Assembly: GCA_902617645.1 (NCBI GenBank)
Contig: CACMXM010000003.1
Location: 1-44,931, forward strand
Reading direction: 5' to 3'
DNA: 44,931 nucleotides
From: an uncultured Pelagibacteraceae bacterium
GTDB lineage: Bacteria; Pseudomonadota; Alphaproteobacteria; Pelagibacterales; Pelagibacteraceae
Shown here: in pieces, positions 1,445 through 31,412 of the stretch
How the letters are laid out: every line of letters starts with the position of its first letter
How positions within the stretch are numbered: the stretch's first letter is position 1
Translations under genes and position numbers: made by a program
Notes under the pieces: model-generated
What the model saw: the letters and a program-made list of their open reading frames with translations, nothing else
Told to the model about the DNA's origin: nothing
Database searches by the model: none

Positions 1445-2114
1445 TAAGTTTGATGTATTCTTTTTTATTAATTTCGTAAAATAACACCCTATCACCGGGA
1501 TTAATTAATATTGGTTGTTTCTCATTTTTTTGATCAAAAATTTTAATTGGAGTAATTCCTAAAATATTCCAGCCACCAGGACTTTCAAAAGTGTAGATGT
1601 TTGTAAACTGTTCTGTAATGCCAACGGCTCCTTTTGGAACTTTAACTCTTGGTGTTTCTAGTCTTTCTAGTCTAATTTTTTTATCGATATCCCCTAAGAA
1701 AGGCATTCCAGCAATAAAGCCTGTCATATAACAGAAATACTCTTTATTTAGATAATTTTCTAAAATTTCTTTTTTTGTTAAATTTAATTTCAATGAAAGC
1801 CTTTCTATATCAAGGGCAAATTCATCATCACAACAAGTTGGTATTTTGATAATTTTTTGATCCTGCCTTATATAACTTTCAGAAATTTCGATGTCCTCAA
1901 TTTTTTTTTTAAGCTCTGTAAAATTTACCACATTTAAGTCAAATGAGATTATTAGTTTATTATAGGAAGGAGTTAAATTGGTTATTCCGTCAATATTTTT
2001 TTTATTAATATTTTCAAAATATTTTATTACTTTTATATTTGTTTTCTGATCAACATCATTTCCAAAATCACAATATAGTGCTGCATCGCCAAGATTTGAT
2101 ATATTTTTAATCAT
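1431..2114 (-). CDS. pxpB: 5-oxoprolinase subunit B (KipI-like)
   Basis: Second component of the PxpABC 5-oxoprolinase. The 227-residue protein opens with NLGDAALYCDFGN, as expected for KipI/allophanate hydrolase subunit 1 proteins. It carries the family motifs YMTGFIAGMPFLGDID (about residues 129-145), TPRVKVPKGAVGITEQ and FESPGGWNILGITPI, and ends with NPGDRVLFYEI. It is transcribed away from pxpA; the ATG at 2114 nearly abuts the pxpA reading frame, so promoters for the two directions must lie within each other's 5' coding region. It overlaps pxpC by 14 bp. Confidence 0.9.
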   Translation of the reverse strand: MIKNISNLGDAALYCDFGNDVDQKTNIKVIKYFENINKKNIDGITNLTPSYNKLIISFDLNVVNFTELKKKIEDIEISESYIRQDQKIIKIPTCCDDEFALDIERLSLKLNLTKKEILENYLNKEYFCYMTGFIAGMPFLGDIDKKIRLERLETPRVKVPKGAVGITEQFTNIYTFESPGGWNILGITPIKIFDQKNEKQPILINPGDRVLFYEINKKEYIKLNEKE

Positions 2115-2142
2115 GACATGTTATACTTTATCAATGGATAGT

Positions 2143-2916
2143 ATGGAAATTAATATTAATTGTGATTTAGGAGAAAAATCCAAACTTCACTCAAACATCA
2201 ATGATCCAAAATTGTTAGAAATTGTTAATTCAGCAAATATAGCATGTGGTTATCATGCTGGTGATCGTGAAACTATGAGTAGTACTATTTTAATTTCAAA
2301 GAAAAATGAAGTAAGTATTGGCGCACATCCATCTTTTAATGATCCTGAAAATTTCGGTAGAAAAAGACTTAATCTTTCTCAGAACGAAATTGAAAAATTA
2401 ATTAAAGACCAATATGAAATACTTCAAAGTATTGCTGAAAAATATAATGAAAATGTAACTCATATAAAGCCACATGGAGCCTTAAATAATATGGCTTGTG
2501 AGGATATAAATTTAGCAACTATGCTTGCTAATATAATTTATAAAATAAACAAAGAATTAATTTATCTCGTTCCCACAGGTTCCAAAATGGAGTTAGCAGC
2601 AAAAAAATTAAACATGAAAATTGCTTGTGAGATTTTTGCTGATCGAAATTACGAAGATGATGGTAATTTAGTTTCTAGATCCAAACCAAATGCATTAATA
2701 ATAGATCCTAATATTGCAAAAAAACATGTTTTATCTATGGTCAAAAACCAATCTATTAATTGTTATTCAGGTAAACAAATTCCTTGTGAAATAGATTCTG
2801 TATGTATCCACGGTGATAATGAAAGCTCTTTAAATACAGCAAAAGTAATAAAAGAAGAGCTTTTAAAAAATAAATTAAACTTAAAAGCTCTTAACCAAAT
2901 GAAAAAATTTAAATAA
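2143..2916 (+). CDS. pxpA: 5-oxoprolinase subunit A (LamB/YcsF family)
   Basis: Third 5-oxoprolinase subunit, the ring-opening LamB/YcsF component. Family motifs are plain: INCDLGEKS at the start, NIACGYHAGDRETM (about 35-48), IGAHPSFNDPENFGRK, THIKPHGALNNMA, and CEIFADRNYEDDGNLVSRS followed near the end by VCIHGDN. The frame is open from an ATG at 2113 that overlaps the pxpB start. I prefer the ATG at 2143, because family members begin only a few residues before the NCDLGE motif; 2134 is the alternative. Length 257 residues, normal. The stop shares a base with the next gene (TAATG). Having pxpA divergent from pxpBC is less common than a single operon. Confidence 0.9.
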   Translation: MEININCDLGEKSKLHSNINDPKLLEIVNSANIACGYHAGDRETMSSTILISKKNEVSIGAHPSFNDPENFGRKRLNLSQNEIEKLIKDQYEILQSIAEKYNENVTHIKPHGALNNMACEDINLATMLANIIYKINKELIYLVPTGSKMELAAKKLNMKIACEIFADRNYEDDGNLVSRSKPNALIIDPNIAKKHVLSMVKNQSINCYSGKQIPCEIDSVCIHGDNESSLNTAKVIKEELLKNKLNLKALNQMKKFK

Positions 2917-19841: not shown

Positions 19842-19862
19842 TTTTGATTCACTTTTGATTCA
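19842..19862. repeat. Direct repeat TTTTGATTCA x2 in the GFA/umuD intergenic region
   Basis: TTTTGATTCA occurs at 19842-19851 and 19853-19862, an 11-bp period, so both copies face the same side of the helix. The first copy, with the GTTC at 19835-19838, forms a degenerate GTTC-N7-GATT resembling the SOS operator with two mismatches. Possible weak regulator site; unproven. Confidence 0.4.
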
Positions 19863-19887
19863 GTTCCAGACTCAAAATACAACCTAT

Positions 19888-19917
19888 TTGACACTATTGA
19901 ATAAGTGTTGTACTAAT
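19888..19917 (+). promoter_or_regulatory. umuDC promoter
   Basis: A perfect -35 box, TTGACA (19888-19893), a 17-bp spacer and TACTAAT (19911-19917) as the -10 region, a weak match to TATAAT. Transcription would start about 19923-19925, inside the SOS box, which is a normal repression geometry. Confidence 0.65.
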
Positions 19918-19919
19918 GA

Positions 19920-19934
19920 GAACAAAATAAGAAC
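19920..19934 (+). promoter_or_regulatory. LexA (SOS) box of umuDC
   Basis: GAAC-AAAATAA-GAAC is an exact match to the alphaproteobacterial LexA operator GAAC-N7-GAAC. It starts 2 bp after the -10 region and ends 7 bp before the umuD ATG at 19942. It shares the GAACAAAA half with the candidate recA box. Confidence 0.85.
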
Positions 19935-19941
19935 ATTTATT

Positions 19942-20337
19942 ATGAAACTGACTATACCTTACTATTTACACAAAGCAGGAGCTGGTTTTCCGTCTCCAGC
20001 TACCGACTACATAGAGGAAGATATAGATCTAAACGTTCACTTAATTAAGAATGTTCCAGCAACTTTTGTAATCAGAGTTCAGGGAAAATCAATGACTGAT
20101 GTTGGTATCAATGATGGAGATATATTGGTCGTCGATAAAAGTTTAACACCTAGAAATTTTTCAACTGTAATTGCAAATGTTCATGACGAATTAGTGGTTA
20201 AAAGCTTTGTACAAGAAAGAGATAAAAAATTTTTAACCTCAGGATCTAAAAATTTCAAAGATAGAATTTTAATTAACGAAGAAGAAGATATTTTTATTTG
20301 GGGAGTTGTAACTTATGTCATCCACTCAGTATACTAA
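19942..20337 (+). CDS. umuD: UmuD-like S24 peptidase, DNA polymerase V accessory subunit
   Basis: After RecA-stimulated self-cleavage, UmuD' binds UmuC to form the error-prone polymerase. The 131-residue protein has the predicted cleavage site at Ala14-Gly15 in [11 protein letters not shown], aligning with Cys24-Gly25 of E. coli UmuD. It has the catalytic Ser50 in [15 protein letters not shown] and Lys87 in ELVVKSF. The N-terminal arm before the cleavage site is about ten residues shorter than in E. coli. The reading frame is open to 19855, but the ATG at 19942 is chosen because it lies just after the SOS box and places the cleavage site correctly. It overlaps umuC by 23 bp. Confidence 0.92.
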
Positions 20338-21595
20338 AAAAATCGCGTTAATTGATTGCAATTCTTTCTATGTTTCTTGTGAAAGATTATTTAACCCAAA
20401 AATAAGAAAAAAACCTGTTGTAGTTTTATCTAATAATGACGGCTGTATAATTTCAAGGTCTAATGAAGCAAAAGCTTTAGGTATTAAAATGGGTGAACCT
20501 TACTTTAAAGCAAAAGATATAATTATAAAAAATAAAGTAAATGTATTTTCATCAAATTATTCTTTATACGGTGATTTATCGAGAAGAGTAATGAGAACTC
20601 TAAAAAGATTTAATTCCGATATAGAGGTTTATTCAATTGATGAAGCATTTATAGATTTATCAAACTTTTCTGACGAAGAAGTTGAAGAAGTTGGGAAGGA
20701 AATCAGGAATACTGTTTTACAGTGGACAGGGATACCAACAAGTATTGGTATAGCAAAAACAAAAACTTTAAGTAAAATTGCAAATCACATTGCAAAGAAA
20801 AAACAATCTGGTGTTACGAGTTTAATTGGTATTGAAAATCTTGATCCGATATTAGAAAAAATTGAAATAAATGATGTATGGGGAGTTGGAAGACAGTTAA
20901 CTAAATTTTATCAAAAACACGGCGTTTATAACGCCAAGCAATTAAAAAATAAATCAAATACCTGGATTAAAAAATGTTCGAATGTTTTAAGTTCAAGAAC
21001 AGCAATGGAGCTTAGAGGTATTCCTTGTATTGATTTAGAAACAACACAATCAAAAAGAAAAAGTTGTGTTGTGTCTCGTTCATTTGGAAAAAGAGTTGAG
21101 CATTTCCAAGAACTAAAAGAAGCAGTTGCAAGTTATTGTTTAAATGCTTCTGAGAAAATTAGGTCAGAAAATTTAGTTGCAAAAGCGATAACCGTTTTTG
21201 TTAGAACAAGTCCTTTCCAAAGAAATTTTGGTTATTATTCAAATTCAAAAACAGTTGATTTTCCGATTGCAACGAACAATAGTATAGAAACTGTTACAGT
21301 TGCAGTTTCAATATTAGAAGAAATATTTAAACATGGTTGTCGATATCAAAAAGCAGGGGTGATGCTAACAGGATTATCAAATGAAAATGATAAGGAAAAT
21401 TTATTCTCATCCGAAAAAGATGAAAAAATAAATAGATTAATGAGATCAATGGATAATACAAATTACCGTTATGGAAGATCTACGTTAAGTCTTGCAAGTG
21501 CGGGTGTTTACAAAAAGTGGAATATGAGAAGAGAACATTCATCTAAAATTGATACAGCTGACTTTTATTCACTGCCAAAAATAAAAACTACTTAG
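20315..21595 (+). CDS. umuC: UmuC-like Y-family DNA polymerase V catalytic subunit
   Basis: Translesion polymerase. Palm motifs are [19 protein letters not shown] (first metal Asp) and [12 protein letters not shown] (Asp-Glu pair); [19 protein letters not shown] is in the fingers. The helix-hairpin-helix region holds [20 protein letters not shown], and [19 protein letters not shown] starts the little-finger domain. Length 426 residues, normal for UmuC. It overlaps umuD by 23 bp and shares its SOS promoter. The 3' end runs 8 bp into the convergent lyase gene. No lesion-bypass neighbour such as imuB is present. Confidence 0.95.
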
Positions 21596-22780: not shown

Positions 22781-23608
22781 TTAGATAGGTTGATCACCTT
22801 CTATAGCAACTCTATCCATTACTCTTTCGTGTCCCAACCCTCTTCCAGGAAAAAAATCTGATAAACCTTGATGTTGAGTGCTTCTATTATCCCAAATCGC
22901 AACAGCATTCTCAGTCCACTTAAATCTACATGTAAGATCTAATCTTTCTTGATGAGTGTATAATTTTTTTAATACTTCATCACTTTCATTTTCTTCAAGG
23001 CCCTCGATTCTTTTTGTGTACATAGAGTTTACATAAAGAATTTTTTTTCCCGTTTCTGGGTGGGTTCTTACAATTGGATGACTGTTTGAATATTCATCTA
23101 TATTTCCATTACCCTCCATGCCTTTATATGCTTCAACGAATGCTGCAGCACCAAGAGAGCTATGAATAGCTTTCTTATCTTTTATTTTTTCTTTAAGTTC
23201 ACTATCTAAAGTTTCATAAGCTAATTCCATATTTGAAAACATTGTATCGCCACCAACAGGAGGAATTTTAATTGATCTTAAAATAATTACTTTTGTAGGC
23301 TTTGGATTATAACTTACATCTGTATGCCAATTTTCTCCCCATTGGTGTTTTTCATCAGGTTTTTTGATTATTCTTATTATCTCAGGATACTCTTCTCTAC
23401 CTTTTACATAAACGTGTTTTTCAAGAGGTCCAAAGTTCTTAGCAAAATTAATCTGCTGTTCTGCTGTAATATTTTGATTTCTAAAAAAAAGAACCTTATG
23501 TTCTAGCAATAAATCATTAATCGTTTTCCAATTTGTCTCAGAAGAATCTTTTAAATCTACACCTTTGATTTCTGCACCTAATGCACCTGAAATAAGATTT
23601 ATTTCCAT
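22781..23608 (-). CDS. TauD/TfdA-family Fe(II)/2-oxoglutarate dioxygenase
   Basis: Oxidises a small organic compound using 2-oxoglutarate, O2 and Fe(II). The iron ligands are His95 and Asp97 in ENWHTDVSYNPKP and His246 in WDNRSTQHQG; the 2-oxoglutarate-binding Arg is in HERVMDRVAI. The N-terminus LISGALGAEIKGVDLK and IPPVGGDTMFSNM are typical of the family. Length 275 residues. Taurine, alkyl sulfates, dichlorophenoxyacetate-like acids or amino acid derivatives are all possible; taurine is not proven. It lies 39 bp after the Amt fusion gene and 5 bp before the lyase gene, so it is probably co-transcribed with them. Confidence 0.88.
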   Translation of the reverse strand: MEINLISGALGAEIKGVDLKDSSETNWKTINDLLLEHKVLFFRNQNITAEQQINFAKNFGPLEKHVYVKGREEYPEIIRIIKKPDEKHQWGENWHTDVSYNPKPTKVIILRSIKIPPVGGDTMFSNMELAYETLDSELKEKIKDKKAIHSSLGAAAFVEAYKGMEGNGNIDEYSNSHPIVRTHPETGKKILYVNSMYTKRIEGLEENESDEVLKKLYTHQERLDLTCRFKWTENAVAIWDNRSTQHQGLSDFFPGRGLGHERVMDRVAIEGDQPI

Positions 23609-23647: not shown

Positions 23648-25774
23648 TTATTTACCTATAACAACAATAGTTAAATCATCACTTAATTTTTTTATTTTTG
23701 ACGAGTCAGTTATCTCTTTAGTAATGTTATTAAGCTCATCATTAACATTTTTGCTAAAATTATTATTTATGACCTTTTTTGAACCTTCAATGCCAATTTC
23801 TTGATTATTTTCATCCAAACTTTCTGATAATCCATCGGTAAATGCATATAGCCTGTTACTATTAAGATTAATTTTATTAATAGAATAATTTGATTTTGTT
23901 TTTTGTATAATCACACCTAGTGGTGGTGATTTGCTCTCAAATTCCTCAAAGTTTCCACTCTTGTCTCTTATTAAAGCTGGTTGATGACCCGCATTTACCC
24001 ATGAAATTTCTCCTGTGATTAAATTATAATTTCCTATAATTGAAGTTACAAACATTCCACTAGTTTTAGTTAAATACAGGTCATTGTTCATGTGAAATGC
24101 AATTTCATCTACATCCACTTTATCTCTAGACATTATTTCAAATAATGTAGATGCTTTTGCCATAACCATTCCTGCATGTATCCCTTTGCCGGCTACATCT
24201 GCAATTATAAAATAGACACTGTCATTATGAGGGTAAAAACTAAAAAAATCTCCTGACACTTCTCTTGCAGCTATATTTATACCTTGAACAGGATAATTTT
24301 TTAAATTTCTTTTTGGTAAAAAGTTTTCTTGAACCTTTACTGCTAGCTTAACTTCTTTTGATATTCTTTCACGCCACCTATTTTTTTCTTCCTCACTTGT
24401 TTCTAACTTACTCATTAATTTATTGTAATAAAGGCCAATCACACCGCCAGCAGTAAATGGATCCTGTGGACCTCTAATTTTCAGATCACCTGATTCTGAT
24501 TGTTTATCTAAAATAGAAATAAGATCATGTTCAACTGAAACTGCATTGTGCTCAGCAATATTTAATCCTAGCTCTTCTTGTACAGGACTTACCCTTAGAG
24601 GATAAAATTTATTAACTAAACTCAACACTGTGTAAGATGAAACAAACGTAAATAAACCAATTGACACAATACCGATTAATTGAATTTTAATTTGAGAAAA
24701 TCTATCTAAACCGGTATCTAAAATATTTAAATCTCCAAATATACCAACCGCTAAAGTTCCCCAAATACCAGCTGCTAAATGTACTGGAACAGCACCAACT
24801 ACATCATCAATTTCAAAGTTATTTAATGTTTCATTTACTATAATTGCAATTATTGCTCCTAATATTCCAACTAAAATTGAGACAACTGATGTCATTGAAT
24901 TACATCCTGCTGTGATTGCTACTAGTCCTGCTAATGGACCTAAAATAATATAAAAAGGATCGGGTTTTTTATATTTAAAGTAAGAAATAGTTAAACCGGT
25001 TAGTAAACCAAACGCTGCTGCTAAAAATGTATTTATTAAAATTAATGGAACAGCTTCATCCATTGCTCCATTACTTCCTCCATTAAAACCAAACCAACCA
25101 AACCATAAAATAAGTGTGCCTAAAACTGCTAAAGGGAAACTAGATCCAGTAAATTTTCCTTTATTCGCCTCAGAATATTTACCTATTCTTGGGCCCAATA
25201 TAATTACAGCTGCCAAAGCAATCCATCCTCCCACAGAGTGAACTATTGTGCTGCCAGCAAAATCTATAAATCCTAAGTCTGATAGCCAACCAGTAGATTT
25301 TACTGAACCTGTAAGATAACTCGAAGACCATGCCCAATGACCAACAACAGGATAGATGACTCCAGTTGCTAAAACTGTCATAATTAAATATCCATTAAAT
25401 TTCATTCTTTCCGCAACAGCACCAGAAATAATAGTTGCGGCAGTAGCAACAAACATTGCCTGAAAAACAAAGTAAGTCATATATTCTGCTTTTTCTGTTT
25501 TGAAAAAAAACAAGTCGGTACCAAAAAAACCATTATAAGAAGTACCAAACATAATACCAAACCCAAAAATCCAAAAAATAACTACGGATACACCAAAGTC
25601 AGCAGCATTTTTTAGTGCAACATTAATACTGTTTTTATATCTAGATAATCCTGTTTCCATACACATAAATCCTGCTTGCATAATGAAAACTAAAATAGCG
25701 CAATCAATTACCCACAAAGTGTCAATGTTGCTTGTTAATTTTTCTATTATCTCTTGGGCCATGTCTTTACTCAT
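23648..25774 (-). CDS. Ammonium transporter fused to a PP2C/SpoIIE-type Ser/Thr phosphatase
   Basis: 708 residues against about 400-430 for a stand-alone Amt. Residues 1-400 are a full Amt channel with about eleven membrane segments. VFQAMFVATAATIISGAVAE carries the Phe gate, GFIDFAGSTIVHSVGGW the essential Asp171 and first pore His179, and GAVPVHLAAGIWGT the second pore His332. A linker (about 405-460) and a short amphipathic/coiled-coil helix (EEEKNRWRERISKEVKLAVK) lead to a SpoIIE/RsbU-like phosphatase. This has KVQENFLPK, REVSGDFFSF (Asp509), FIIADVAGKGIHAGMVMAK (Asp526), VNAGHQPALI, AFTDGLSES (Asp647) and LSDDLTIVVI (Asp699/700). All PP2C metal ligands are kept, so both halves look functional. 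A transceptor that dephosphorylates a partner according to ammonium flux is inference. Starts 4 bp after the GT2 gene; no glnB/glnK in the window. Confidence 0.93.
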   Translation of the reverse strand: MSKDMAQEIIEKLTSNIDTLWVIDCAILVFIMQAGFMCMETGLSRYKNSINVALKNAADFGVSVVIFWIFGFGIMFGTSYNGFFGTDLFFFKTEKAEYMTYFVFQAMFVATAATIISGAVAERMKFNGYLIMTVLATGVIYPVVGHWAWSSSYLTGSVKSTGWLSDLGFIDFAGSTIVHSVGGWIALAAVIILGPRIGKYSEANKGKFTGSSFPLAVLGTLILWFGWFGFNGGSNGAMDEAVPLILINTFLAAAFGLLTGLTISYFKYKKPDPFYIILGPLAGLVAITAGCNSMTSVVSILVGILGAIIAIIVNETLNNFEIDDVVGAVPVHLAAGIWGTLAVGIFGDLNILDTGLDRFSQIKIQLIGIVSIGLFTFVSSYTVLSLVNKFYPLRVSPVQEELGLNIAEHNAVSVEHDLISILDKQSESGDLKIRGPQDPFTAGGVIGLYYNKLMSKLETSEEEKNRWRERISKEVKLAVKVQENFLPKRNLKNYPVQGINIAAREVSGDFFSFYPHNDSVYFIIADVAGKGIHAGMVMAKASTLFEIMSRDKVDVDEIAFHMNNDLYLTKTSGMFVTSIIGNYNLITGEISWVNAGHQPALIRDKSGNFEEFESKSPPLGVIIQKTKSNYSINKINLNSNRLYAFTDGLSESLDENNQEIGIEGSKKVINNNFSKNVNDELNNITKEITDSSKIKKLSDDLTIVVIGK

Positions 25775-25778
25775 AATA

Positions 25779-26645
25779 TTAAAATTTTTGAATACTTAAA
25801 ATATTTTCTAATGAGTTTTCAATCTGATTCAAATTTTCTCTTTTAGAAATAACAAATGTACTAACTAAGAATATTACTACTAAAATAACTGGTATAATCA
25901 TTATAAATGATATTTTTTGATGTATTAGAAAAAAATATACCAAAATAAATAAAATTGATCTTATTAAAACATTGAATTTAAATACACCAATTATTGCTAA
26001 TGAATGTTTTATAAGATTTAAAAAACTCATTTTTGATGGTCCAAAATATCTTTTACCTCTCTCAGATGCAATTGCTGCTCTGTCATTACAATTTTTTGCT
26101 AATGAACCTGAGAAACTACTCCAAGTTGCTTTATCGGTTAACATTTTTTCTATAGTTGATTTTGTCAAGCATGTATAATTTCCGAATTTAATAGATTGGC
26201 CTGTAAAAGTATAAGTTAAAATTTTATGAAATGAATAGCACAATTTAAATAAAATACTTTCGGATCTTTTAACTCTTTCTCCTACTATTGTTTTATTTGG
26301 ATGATAATTAAAATTTTCTATGAATAATTTTATTTCTTCAGGCCTATCTTCACCATCTCCATCCATTGGAATTACATAATCAAACTCCTCATTTTTAATA
26401 ATATGATTTAGACCTGTCGCAATACATCTTGCATGGCCTACATTTTGTTTAAGATTCAAAATTTGAACTGAATTTAAATTCGAAAAGTTTGAGAGGTTTT
26501 CTGTAATTTGTTCTGTAGATGCGTCGTTTACTAAAATTATTGAAAAAGTATGATCTATTCCACTTACTTCATTATTAATATTTTCTAAGAGTTTAGTTGC
26601 AGATTGCCAATCATTATAAATCGGTATCAATATTATTATTTTCAT
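25779..26645 (-). CDS. GT2-family glycosyltransferase with two C-terminal membrane segments
   Basis: A 288-residue enzyme starting IIILIPIYNDWQSATKLLE, the GT2 nucleotide-binding strand. FSIILVNDASTEQ follows, then LKQNVGHARCIATGL and YVIPMDGDGEDRPEEI, which holds the DxD-type metal-binding motif in the DPM1/GtrB-like form. Two hydrophobic segments (about 220-240 and 245-265) anchor the C-terminus. Enzymes of this kind often charge polyprenyl phosphate with a sugar, which a PMT/ArnT-type transferase then uses; such a gene lies just upstream. It is preceded by a 41-codon ORF ending 2 bp before its ATG. Confidence 0.85.
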   Translation of the reverse strand: MKIIILIPIYNDWQSATKLLENINNEVSGIDHTFSIILVNDASTEQITENLSNFSNLNSVQILNLKQNVGHARCIATGLNHIIKNEEFDYVIPMDGDGEDRPEEIKLFIENFNYHPNKTIVGERVKRSESILFKLCYSFHKILTYTFTGQSIKFGNYTCLTKSTIEKMLTDKATWSSFSGSLAKNCNDRAAIASERGKRYFGPSKMSFLNLIKHSLAIIGVFKFNVLIRSILFILVYFFLIHQKISFIMIIPVILVVIFLVSTFVISKRENLNQIENSLENILSIQKF

Positions 26646-30616: not shown

Positions 30617-31384
30617 TTAAGCTCTTCTGCCAGAGTTAGCAACTGCGCAAGACCAAATAATAACACCGAATGCGATCTTATTAACAAAGTCTGCTAAGTT
30701 GTAAATCACGTTAAGTGAGTTAGCATCAATACCACCTGTTAGGTAACCAAATACATAACCTAGTGGGTAAATAGCCCAACCTACTGTAACGATCATTCTT
30801 AAAGCACCAAATGCTGTTGCAAGTGATTTATTTCCAGATTTAGAAACAACTTTTCCTGCTTCTCCTGAAAATATTTCATAAAGGATGTAAATCCATCCAG
30901 CCATACCGATAATGAAACCAAGCATAGGGTTGATGAATCCTGCTTCTCCTAAATATCCACCTACTAACATTACTAAAGAACCAATTAAGATTCTCCAGAA
31001 TATTCCAGTTGGAACTTTTTTAACTGCAGCTAGAATTAAATAAAATTCTATTAACTGTAGTGGTACAGTAATCAACCAATCAATATATCTGTAAACAGTT
31101 GGTGTATCACCTGTTTCAACCCATACTGCTCTCATGTACATATAGTGAATGAATGCTATACCAGTTACTAATCCAGCTACGTTTACTGATTTTCTCCACT
31201 GAGTGCTAACATTAGCTTGCTCCATAAAGAAAAACGCTGTAGCTGCCAACATACCCATTGAAATTAACCAGAATGAAATACCAACGAAATCATCCGTAGC
31301 TAAAAAGGCTGTTGCTGCGTTAGCCGCTGTAGTTGCTCCAACAAGAGCAAATAAAGCTATAGCTAGCGTTTTAAGTTTTTTCAT
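30617..31384 (-). CDS. Proteorhodopsin, blue-tuned light-driven proton pump
   Basis: A 255-residue, seven-helix retinal protein with a cleavable signal (MKKLKTLAIALFALVGATTA). Key residues from the ATG at 31384 are all present: His80 in AFIHYMYM, proton acceptor Asp102 in YRYIDWL, tuning residue Gln110 in TVPLQLIEFYL, proton donor Glu113 and retinal Lys236 in LADFVNKIAFG. They correspond to H75, D97, Q105, E108 and K231 of the reference protein. Gln at the tuning site indicates blue absorption, as in open-ocean SAR11. The start at 31384 is preferred to the in-frame ATG at 31399, because that upstream stretch supplies the Shine-Dalgarno GAGGGAG. Retinal synthesis genes are not in the window. 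A strong terminator follows. Confidence 0.98.
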   Translation of the reverse strand: MKKLKTLAIALFALVGATTAANAATAFLATDDFVGISFWLISMGMLAATAFFFMEQANVSTQWRKSVNVAGLVTGIAFIHYMYMRAVWVETGDTPTVYRYIDWLITVPLQLIEFYLILAAVKKVPTGIFWRILIGSLVMLVGGYLGEAGFINPMLGFIIGMAGWIYILYEIFSGEAGKVVSKSGNKSLATAFGALRMIVTVGWAIYPLGYVFGYLTGGIDANSLNVIYNLADFVNKIAFGVIIWSCAVANSGRRA

Positions 31385-31412
31385 AAAAAACTCCCTCATT
31401 AGTTAGTTTTTA

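Follow-up and report, generated by a model that had tools for sequence, protein, structure and literature searches.

A sensor-type ammonium transporter domain fused to a predicted PP2C phosphatase in Pelagibacteraceae, and its candidate link to partner switching and type IV pili

Members of the ammonium transporter (Amt) family that act as sensors and carry kinase or cyclic-di-GMP outputs are already known. In Ks-Amt5 of Kuenenia stuttgartiensis the ammonium site comprises Q24, E31, N47, D50, T51, T109 and T112, and Amt proteins are described as trimers (PMC5764959). RsbU-type phosphatases are activated as dimers, and it has been proposed that sensory domains are swapped among PPM phosphatases, kinases and cyclases via helical linkers (PMC12143880, in the main text of which the word "transporter" is absent). 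Here we analyze a gene that joins an Amt domain to a SpoIIE/PP2C-type phosphatase domain, located in a stretch of 44,931 nucleotides (hereafter "the window": positions 1 to 44,931 of contig CACMXM010000003.1, assembly GCA_902617645.1) from an uncultured Pelagibacteraceae bacterium. The assembly is 67.6% complete and consists of 48 contigs; its closest relatives are likewise uncultured Pelagibacteraceae assemblies.

The fusion gene is a single intact frame of 708 codons on the minus strand, with the ATG start at 25774, the last codon at 23651 and the stop reaching 23648, and it encodes a protein of 708 amino acids; the plus-strand reading of the same segment contains many stops. Pfam assigns residues 21-411 to Ammonium_transp (E 2.3e-112) and residues 518-706 to SpoIIE (E 2.6e-33). 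An initial annotation, made from the sequence alone, had described this uninterrupted frame without giving its strand, and had listed Asp171, His179, His332, the Phe gate (F108/F228), D509, D526, D647 and D699/D700, all of which we find at those numbers. It had also named ways in which the fusion might prove spurious: an assembly artefact, occurrence in one genome only, or two genes separated by a conserved stop. We looked at each of them and found otherwise. We drew 250 genomes evenly from the genus, and 66 of them contain a match to the fusion at E<=1e-120 (64 with an ortholog and 19 with a paralog, some cut at contig ends), with no internal stop among the matches listed. A scan of GTDB, made with the linker and the start of the phosphatase and relying on two short phosphatase motifs, so that it reaches near relatives only, matched 355 relatives; the results cover the best 80, all from Pelagibacteraceae, where the locus is a single frame of at least 690 amino acids in 77 and runs into a contig end in the other three, without a frame break. 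An artefact or a single-genome fusion is ruled out by the genus genomes and the intact GTDB frames, and so is a pair of genes divided by a conserved stop. Among 121 relatives searched, a full-length ortholog was found in 21 (the window's own genome included), at 75-100% identity, and four of these 21 also possess the paralog (54-57% identity). In three loci of relatives (designated here by L and a number) we observed this second Amt-SpoIIE gene, 53-57% identical, near the first (L059 5351-7588, L060 10229-12466, L061 2967-5252).

The initial annotation had proposed a search for this architecture across SAR11 and beyond, and within the scans made we found it in Pelagibacteraceae only. It was not found in 48 genomes from a neighbouring family within the order (where the best match, at 2.5e-76, covers the Amt only), nor outside Pelagibacteraceae in 385 genomes of the class, among the matches listed (to about E 4e-64), or in 398 genomes of the phylum at E<=1e-75. 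Among the matches listed for the latter two draws, which overlap and which a weakly scoring distant fusion could both escape, no protein except the window's own extended into the phosphatase.

The closest solved structures to the Amt half are 8qj3/8qpf, aligned through the linker (query residues 19-473), followed by Ks-Amt5 (6eu6). A tree was built from 67 Amt domains, including 10 of the 35 fusions. In it the fusion Amts cluster with 8qj3 (support 100) within a clade that also contains Ks-Amt5, 17 Amt-histidine kinases and five other fused Amts, the nested nodes leading from Ks-Amt5 to the fusions having supports of 97, 98, 87, 97, 100 and 100. A separate clade, also with support of 100, unites 28 of the 29 stand-alone Amts, namely the 13 transporters of SAR11 itself and 15 of the 16 others. 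Comparison of the ammonium-site residues reveals the same division. The position of Q33 is Gln in 35/35 fusions (own included), 3/3 paralogs, 17/17 Amt-histidine kinases and 5/5 other fused Amts, and Ala in 28/29 stand-alone Amts; D59 is Asp in 60/60 fused Amts and replaced by Leu or Lys in 28/29 stand-alone ones; T114 is Thr in 60/60 and Ser in 28/29, respectively. The complete trio occurs in 60/60 fused vs 1/29 stand-alone Amts, an agreement that is in part shared ancestry, the fused Amts having been picked by similarity to the query. The stand-alone exception (L133) is placed apart from the clade of transporters, and its gene neighbours that of a GAF sigma-54 activator. In L182 (3368-4669 and 5433-6950) the genes of a stand-alone Amt with the sensor-type trio and of a GAF sigma-54 activator are divergent. 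Descent of the fusion Amt from SAR11's own transporter is ruled out by the tree and the site residues. By ancestry and site residues, the Amt half is assigned to the sensor class of the Ks-Amt5 type, with ammonium as its putative ligand; five of the seven Ks-Amt5 site residues are identical in the fusion, T51 being replaced by F60 and T112, conservatively, by S117.

The twin His, the Phe gate, Asp171 and the vestibule residues are retained in 35/35 fusions (H179, H332, F108/F228, D171), and no other Amt was found in the window's own (67.6% complete) assembly. Both observations would suit a true transceptor, through which ammonium is still imported and in which flux, not binding, sets the phosphatase activity. 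We regard this as unlikely, as the fusion Amt clusters with sensor Amts, Ks-Amt5, which does not transport, retains these pore residues as well (PMC5764959), and a separate Amt match is present in at least 17 of the 21 fusion genomes, with an 18th (in G019) broken. Pore-blocking positions are not diagnostic and were dropped as a mark of sensing, since F36 occurs in all Amt groups. The initial annotation's "ammonium transceptor" holds as a sensor-like module with a PP2C-type output, but the term itself is probably too strong for an Amt that groups with sensor Amts and shares their three discriminating residues.

In the C-terminal half, D509, D526, D647 and D699/D700 are invariant in 35/35 orthologs (own included) and 3/3 paralogs, so that the conservation of metal ligands on which the initial annotation had made its proposal depend is borne out; we take the SGDF, DVAGKG, TDG and DDLT motifs to be those of the metal site. 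The three paralogs checked retain both the catalytic and the discriminating ammonium-site residues. A model of residues 412-708 has a mean predicted local distance difference test score (pLDDT) of 80 (72-98 in the phosphatase block) and matches the PP2C domain of SiaA (Z 25.3, root-mean-square deviation 2.6, 237 residues aligned), the RsbU domain of Rv1364c (Z 24.3) and SpoIIE (Z 22.8), while Foldseek matched the phosphatase domain of RssB with E 3.9e-14. The model thus gives the C-terminal half a PP2C fold and indicates a PPM phosphatase of the SpoIIE/RsbU type, with predicted activity. Amt, linker and phosphatase are alike under purifying selection, weakest on the phosphatase: the ratio of non-synonymous to synonymous substitution rates (dN/dS) between the window's gene and its nearest relative is 0.034, 0.019 and 0.063, respectively, and the median over close pairs is 0.18 for the phosphatase vs 0.05 for the Amt. 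This faster evolution is what one would expect of a decayed or non-functional domain riding on an ammonium transporter, an explanation we consider very improbable in view of the invariant catalytic residues and of dN/dS values well below 1.

The linker can also be recognised in Amts fused to other outputs. A HAMP domain was matched in one of them (L151) and below threshold in three of five linkers; it was also considered for the window's own linker, which gave no match even at E 1. A helix is predicted ahead of the phosphatase domain in monomer models with low linker confidence. Sensor Amts of this kind, with the same linker, were found in other Pseudomonadota at 46 loci, each with an Amt frame and none with SpoIIE. 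Of the 44 frames of at least 650 amino acids, 25 have a HisKA motif, 11 GGDEF, four the motif of methyl-accepting chemotaxis proteins (MCP) and four no motif, the last being assigned by Pfam to MCP (two), PAS (one) and HATPase_c (one); the sensor Amts with GGDEF outputs also have EAL where Pfam-scanned. A SpoIIE hidden Markov model built from the fusions alone, which as a control recovered 10/10 SAR11 GAF/CHASE2-SpoIIE proteins, gave 0 matches in these 46 loci. Conversely, Pfam finds no HisKA/HATPase_c output in the fusion, which has SpoIIE instead and is not an Amt-histidine kinase. The occurrence of the same Amt and linker with kinase, GGDEF, MCP and PAS outputs elsewhere is consistent with the proposed exchange of domains (PMC12143880). 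No earlier Amt-PP2C/SpoIIE architecture was found in the literature searched, outside which most subscription papers fall, and an earlier mention is possible. The sensor Amts fused to MCP signalling domains (Pfam MCPsignal in L111, L149, L150 and L151; motif only in L184 and L185) are candidate ammonium chemoreceptors in their own right.

The initial annotation had guessed at an RsbV-like STAS protein and an RsbW-like kinase as partners, and had stated correctly that neither is encoded in the window; many relatives encode both at a distance of about 2 kb from the fusion. Among the 250 genomes of the genus we found a short STAS protein in 80, a short HATPase_c_2 protein in 82 and both in 80, after dropping 11 STAS matches with frames longer than 135 amino acids and, among the matches listed, HATPase_c_2 matches weaker than 1.8e-14, mostly in frames of 317-611 amino acids. 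The HATPase_c_2 protein is present in 57/66 genomes with the fusion vs 25/184 without it (Fisher tests for co-occurrence, P about 1e-26, with genome relatedness and incompleteness ignored). In 45 of the 64 orthologs it is encoded on the same contig as the fusion, always divergently, 43 times upstream and in 39 of these at a distance of 1.67-2.2 kb. The STAS proteins of relatives contain the DSSG motif in 41/41 cases, and the kinases contain E46, N50, D83, G85 and GGLG, i.e. the GHKL N, G1 and G2 boxes, in 33/33. The closest PDB match of both is the complex of RsbW with its antagonist (6m36); the STAS protein passes the NCBIfam cut-off for anti-sigma-antagonists, and the best NCBIfam match of the kinase is RsbW, below the cut-off. 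Some genomes (L047, L053, L063 and others) have two different STAS genes in tandem ahead of the kinase, others only one. Judging from sequence and gene order, the RsbV-like STAS protein and the RsbW-like kinase are probably the substrate and the antagonist of the fusion phosphatase, which would dephosphorylate the former. A general Ser/Thr phosphatase with substrates other than the linked STAS protein would suit the 2025 phosphoproteome of SAR11 strain HTCC1062, which reports 555 phosphoproteins, a single predicted Ser/Thr kinase (RsbW) and, among the annotated phosphatases, none with a predicted action on proteins (PMC13198564). It seems rather improbable to us, given the conserved linkage of the fusion to the STAS and kinase genes and the fact that STAS anti-anti-sigma factors are described as the targets of bacterial PPM phosphatases of the SpoIIE/RsbU type (PMC11418112).

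Genomic neighborhood analysis revealed a link to type IV pili and two further SpoIIE phosphatases, neither of which the initial annotation had foreseen. The gene order in relatives is PilM/N-PilO-PilP-PilQ-PilB-PilC, then the kinase and STAS genes on the other strand and two pilin-like genes, often followed by a small lipoprotein-like gene, the fusion, a TPR-like protein, FecR, a CHASE2-SpoIIE protein and an autotransporter (the labels PilP, lipoprotein, second pilin and TPR reflect position, similarity or sub-threshold matches, and PilB matches best as PilB, under the cut-off). The order PilC-kinase-STAS-pilin occurs in loci of 18 genomes, and in 11 of them the fusion, or the fusion with its paralog, comes next. 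In the best 80 GTDB loci (flanks of 3.5 kb) the context of the fusion is the pilus cluster in 50, resembles that of the window in 22 and is different in eight. On the protein tree the context changes four times, the split from the paralogs counted, compared with an average of 28 and a minimum of 22 after shuffling, thus the gene has moved few times. In the nearest relative (94% identity) the pilus cluster, the kinase and two STAS genes are on a contig other than that of the fusion; contig C13 of the window's own assembly begins inside the cluster, at its right-hand end, just past the place that the kinase and STAS genes occupy in this sister genome, and their counterparts have therefore probably been lost to an assembly gap.

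The window's genome has three SpoIIE phosphatases, each of them pilus-linked there or in relatives. The gene of a GAF-SpoIIE protein (L001/L186, own contig C4, 238-1539, minus strand) is divergent from that of the prepilin peptidase PilD (1687-2457, plus strand), a pair that recurs in the seven relatives' loci viewed that hold GAF-SpoIIE (L113-L118, L120). The CHASE2-SpoIIE gene (L064, own contig C13, 2743-4836) follows a FecR-like gene in the pilus cluster. We also noted a pilus ATPase with an MshEN domain (L049 2681-4432). Elsewhere MshEN binds cyclic-di-GMP, and it is a possible second input here. The autotransporter adhesin of SAR11 is reported always to adjoin genes of type IV pili and/or type II secretion, and adhesion or surface attachment has not been observed in this group (PMC12636525). 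We found nothing in the literature searched that joins partner switching, type IV pili, STAS and a phosphatase.

What the switch might act on can be narrowed by the sigma factors available. In 20 genomes, sigma-70 proteins are of two kinds only, 531-635 and 299-302 amino acids long, which from their size we take to be RpoD and RpoH; both kinds were found in 18 genomes, and one kind in the window's incomplete genome and in one other. The sigma-70 search, which did not extend to sigma-54, thus revealed no dedicated alternative sigma factor in these 20 genomes; such a factor is probably not the target, and we do not class the system as a sigma-B-type pathway. Two sigma factors, sigma-70 and sigma-32, are described for SAR11, and RpoD and RpoH are both phosphorylated in HTCC1062 (PMC13198564). 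The same sensor-phosphatase and switch could accordingly end in a kinase that serves as an anti-sigma factor on RpoD/RpoH, with global transcription and not the pilus as output, much as the Rsb network of Chlamydia is reported to control the primary sigma factor (PMC4552016). We find this doubtful, for in the loci viewed the kinase and STAS genes lie within the pilus cluster and the sigma-factor matches elsewhere. A PII nitrogen response system is described in SAR11s (PMC6018831, whose reference list includes an mBio 2013 title with "PII-independent response"), so the fusion sensor need not replace PII, and the signalling without PII suggested in the initial annotation may be mistaken at the level of the whole cell.

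As the best account of these observations, we propose that an ammonium-controlled phosphatase acts through a partner-switching system on the regulation of type IV pili, to which we give a probability of about 0.5. Ammonium would enter the Amt vestibule and be bound within the membrane at a Ks-Amt5-like site, altering the cytoplasmic linker, which may reposition or pair the phosphatase domains and so change their activity; the sign of this effect could be either. The phosphatase would dephosphorylate the small RsbV-like STAS protein at its DSSG Ser, the RsbW-like kinase being the presumed phosphorylating enzyme, and the altered phosphorylation would give the kinase or the STAS protein a new partner, whereby the type IV pilus system is tuned. 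The GAF-SpoIIE and CHASE2-SpoIIE phosphatases may feed other signals into the same switch. The fuller statement, that control of SAR11 pili runs through a switch without an alternative sigma factor as its end point, and that in one lineage PP2C was swapped in for a kinase or cyclase, we hold more tentatively, at somewhat less than even odds.

Several points weigh against this proposal. It is built throughout on sequence, models and gene neighbourhood, and it is the neighbourhood that suggests the pilus as the output, a pattern to which the window's own copy of the fusion, not adjoining the pilus cluster, does not conform. The stand-alone STAS and HATPase_c proteins that the initial annotation expected in the same genome, and that relatives possess, were found neither by family search nor at the DNA level in the window's incomplete assembly. 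Twenty-five fusion-free genomes have the kinase, hence the module does not depend on the Amt-SpoIIE sensor. Two of the seven Ks-Amt5 ligands differ (F60, S117), and E31 and N47, though kept, are shared with transporters, so only Q24, D50 and T109 discriminate. Evolution is faster in the phosphatase than in the Amt. Confidence in the full-length model is poor (predicted template-modelling score 0.52, most of the linker with pLDDT <50), and how a trimeric Amt could signal to a phosphatase of a dimer-activated type is puzzling, a question that by analogy applies equally to Amt-kinases.

SAR11 cells have few transcriptional regulators. The PP2C output and the apparent switch partners nearby make ammonium sensing by a Ser/Thr phosphatase testable with soluble proteins, and provide a concrete candidate circuit for nitrogen-dependent pilus control in an abundant ocean group. 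If true, it would be a direct switch from nitrogen to a surface appendage, for adhesion or DNA uptake, in an abundant ocean heterotroph, and would supply the kind of phosphatase that the phosphoproteome study could not find in HTCC1062 (PMC13198564).

The features of the gene and its immediate neighbours are collected in Table 1. The family 2 glycosyltransferase, which ends 4 bases ahead of the fusion start, is probably co-transcribed with it, and a homolog lies near the fusion in the 22 of the best 80 GTDB loci with a window-like context. Two genes downstream of the fusion we found a protein of the alginate-lyase family (PF05426; 21588-22775, minus strand) in this SAR11 genome. The SAR11_0636 small RNA (RF01827; 19795-19884, minus strand) is at the start of a gene pair (19855-21595) encoding a UmuC-like protein (Pfam IMS) and one that we take to be UmuD-like. 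A rhodopsin gene (Bac_rhodopsin; 30617-31399, minus strand) lies about 5 kb from the fusion, and in the nearest relative (L045) the fusion copy, which has been relocated, also has one in its vicinity.

Table 1. Coordinates in the window of the fusion gene, its domains and key codons, and the adjacent genes
Feature	Position	Strand	Basis
Amt-SpoIIE fusion gene	23648..25774	-	708 codons and stop; orthologs in relatives
Sensor-type Amt domain, residues 18-408	24551..25723	-	Pfam Ammonium_transp; PDB matches 8qj3, 6eu6; tree
Conserved helical linker, residues 409-489	24308..24550	-	Also recognised where Amts carry other outputs; dN/dS 0.019
SpoIIE/PP2C phosphatase domain (predicted), residues 490-708	23651..24307	-	Pfam; model; fold matches
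Codon Q33 (Gln24 of the Ks-Amt5 ammonium site)	25676..25678	-	Residue comparison across Amts
Codon D59 (Asp50 of Ks-Amt5)	25598..25600	-	Residue comparison across Amts
Codon T114 (Thr109 of Ks-Amt5)	25433..25435	-	Residue comparison across Amts
Codon D509, presumed metal-site Asp, SGDF motif	24248..24250	-	35/35 orthologs (own included), 3/3 paralogs
Codon D526, presumed metal-site Asp, DVAGKG motif	24197..24199	-	35/35 orthologs (own included), 3/3 paralogs
Codon D647, presumed metal-site Asp, TDG motif	23834..23836	-	35/35 orthologs (own included), 3/3 paralogs
Codons D699-D700, DDLT motif	23675..23680	-	35/35 orthologs (own included), 3/3 paralogs
Family 2 glycosyltransferase, ahead of the fusion start	25779..26645	-	
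TauD-family dioxygenase, downstream of the fusion	22781..23608	-	

Among known systems, the proteins of PDB entries 8qj3/8qj4/8qpf ("Ammonium transporter", 644-661 amino acids), which we take to be an Amt-diguanylate cyclase of Shewanella, are sister to the fusion clade and the closest solved match over the Amt and linker, but the match stops before the phosphatase and the C-terminal parts are not recognisably alike. The Amt-PAS-GGDEF-EAL and Amt-MCP proteins of other Pseudomonadota likewise have the same sensor Amt and linker, whereas their output is cyclic-di-GMP or chemotaxis. With RsbU, SpoIIE and SiaA and their RsbV-RsbW partner switching the fusion shares the predicted PP2C fold, the metal-site Asp residues and, in relatives, a nearby DSSG-containing STAS protein and HATPase_c_2 kinase; it differs in having an Amt as the sensor and in that the sigma-70 proteins of the 20 genomes examined include no dedicated alternative sigma factor. 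In the HmpU-V-W system of Nostoc punctiforme the output is thought to be the STAS protein HmpV and not a sigma factor, although that system is cyanobacterial and its description names no Amt sensor and does not mention adjacency to pilus genes (PMC6495340). Finally, Ks-Amt5 and the Amt-histidine kinases (6eu6) belong to the same clade and have in common with the fusion the Amt sensor module, residues Q24, E31, N47, D50 and T109, and a C-terminal output placed after a helical connector; where they possess a histidine kinase, the fusion possesses a predicted PP2C Ser/Thr phosphatase, together with F60 and S117 in the ammonium site.

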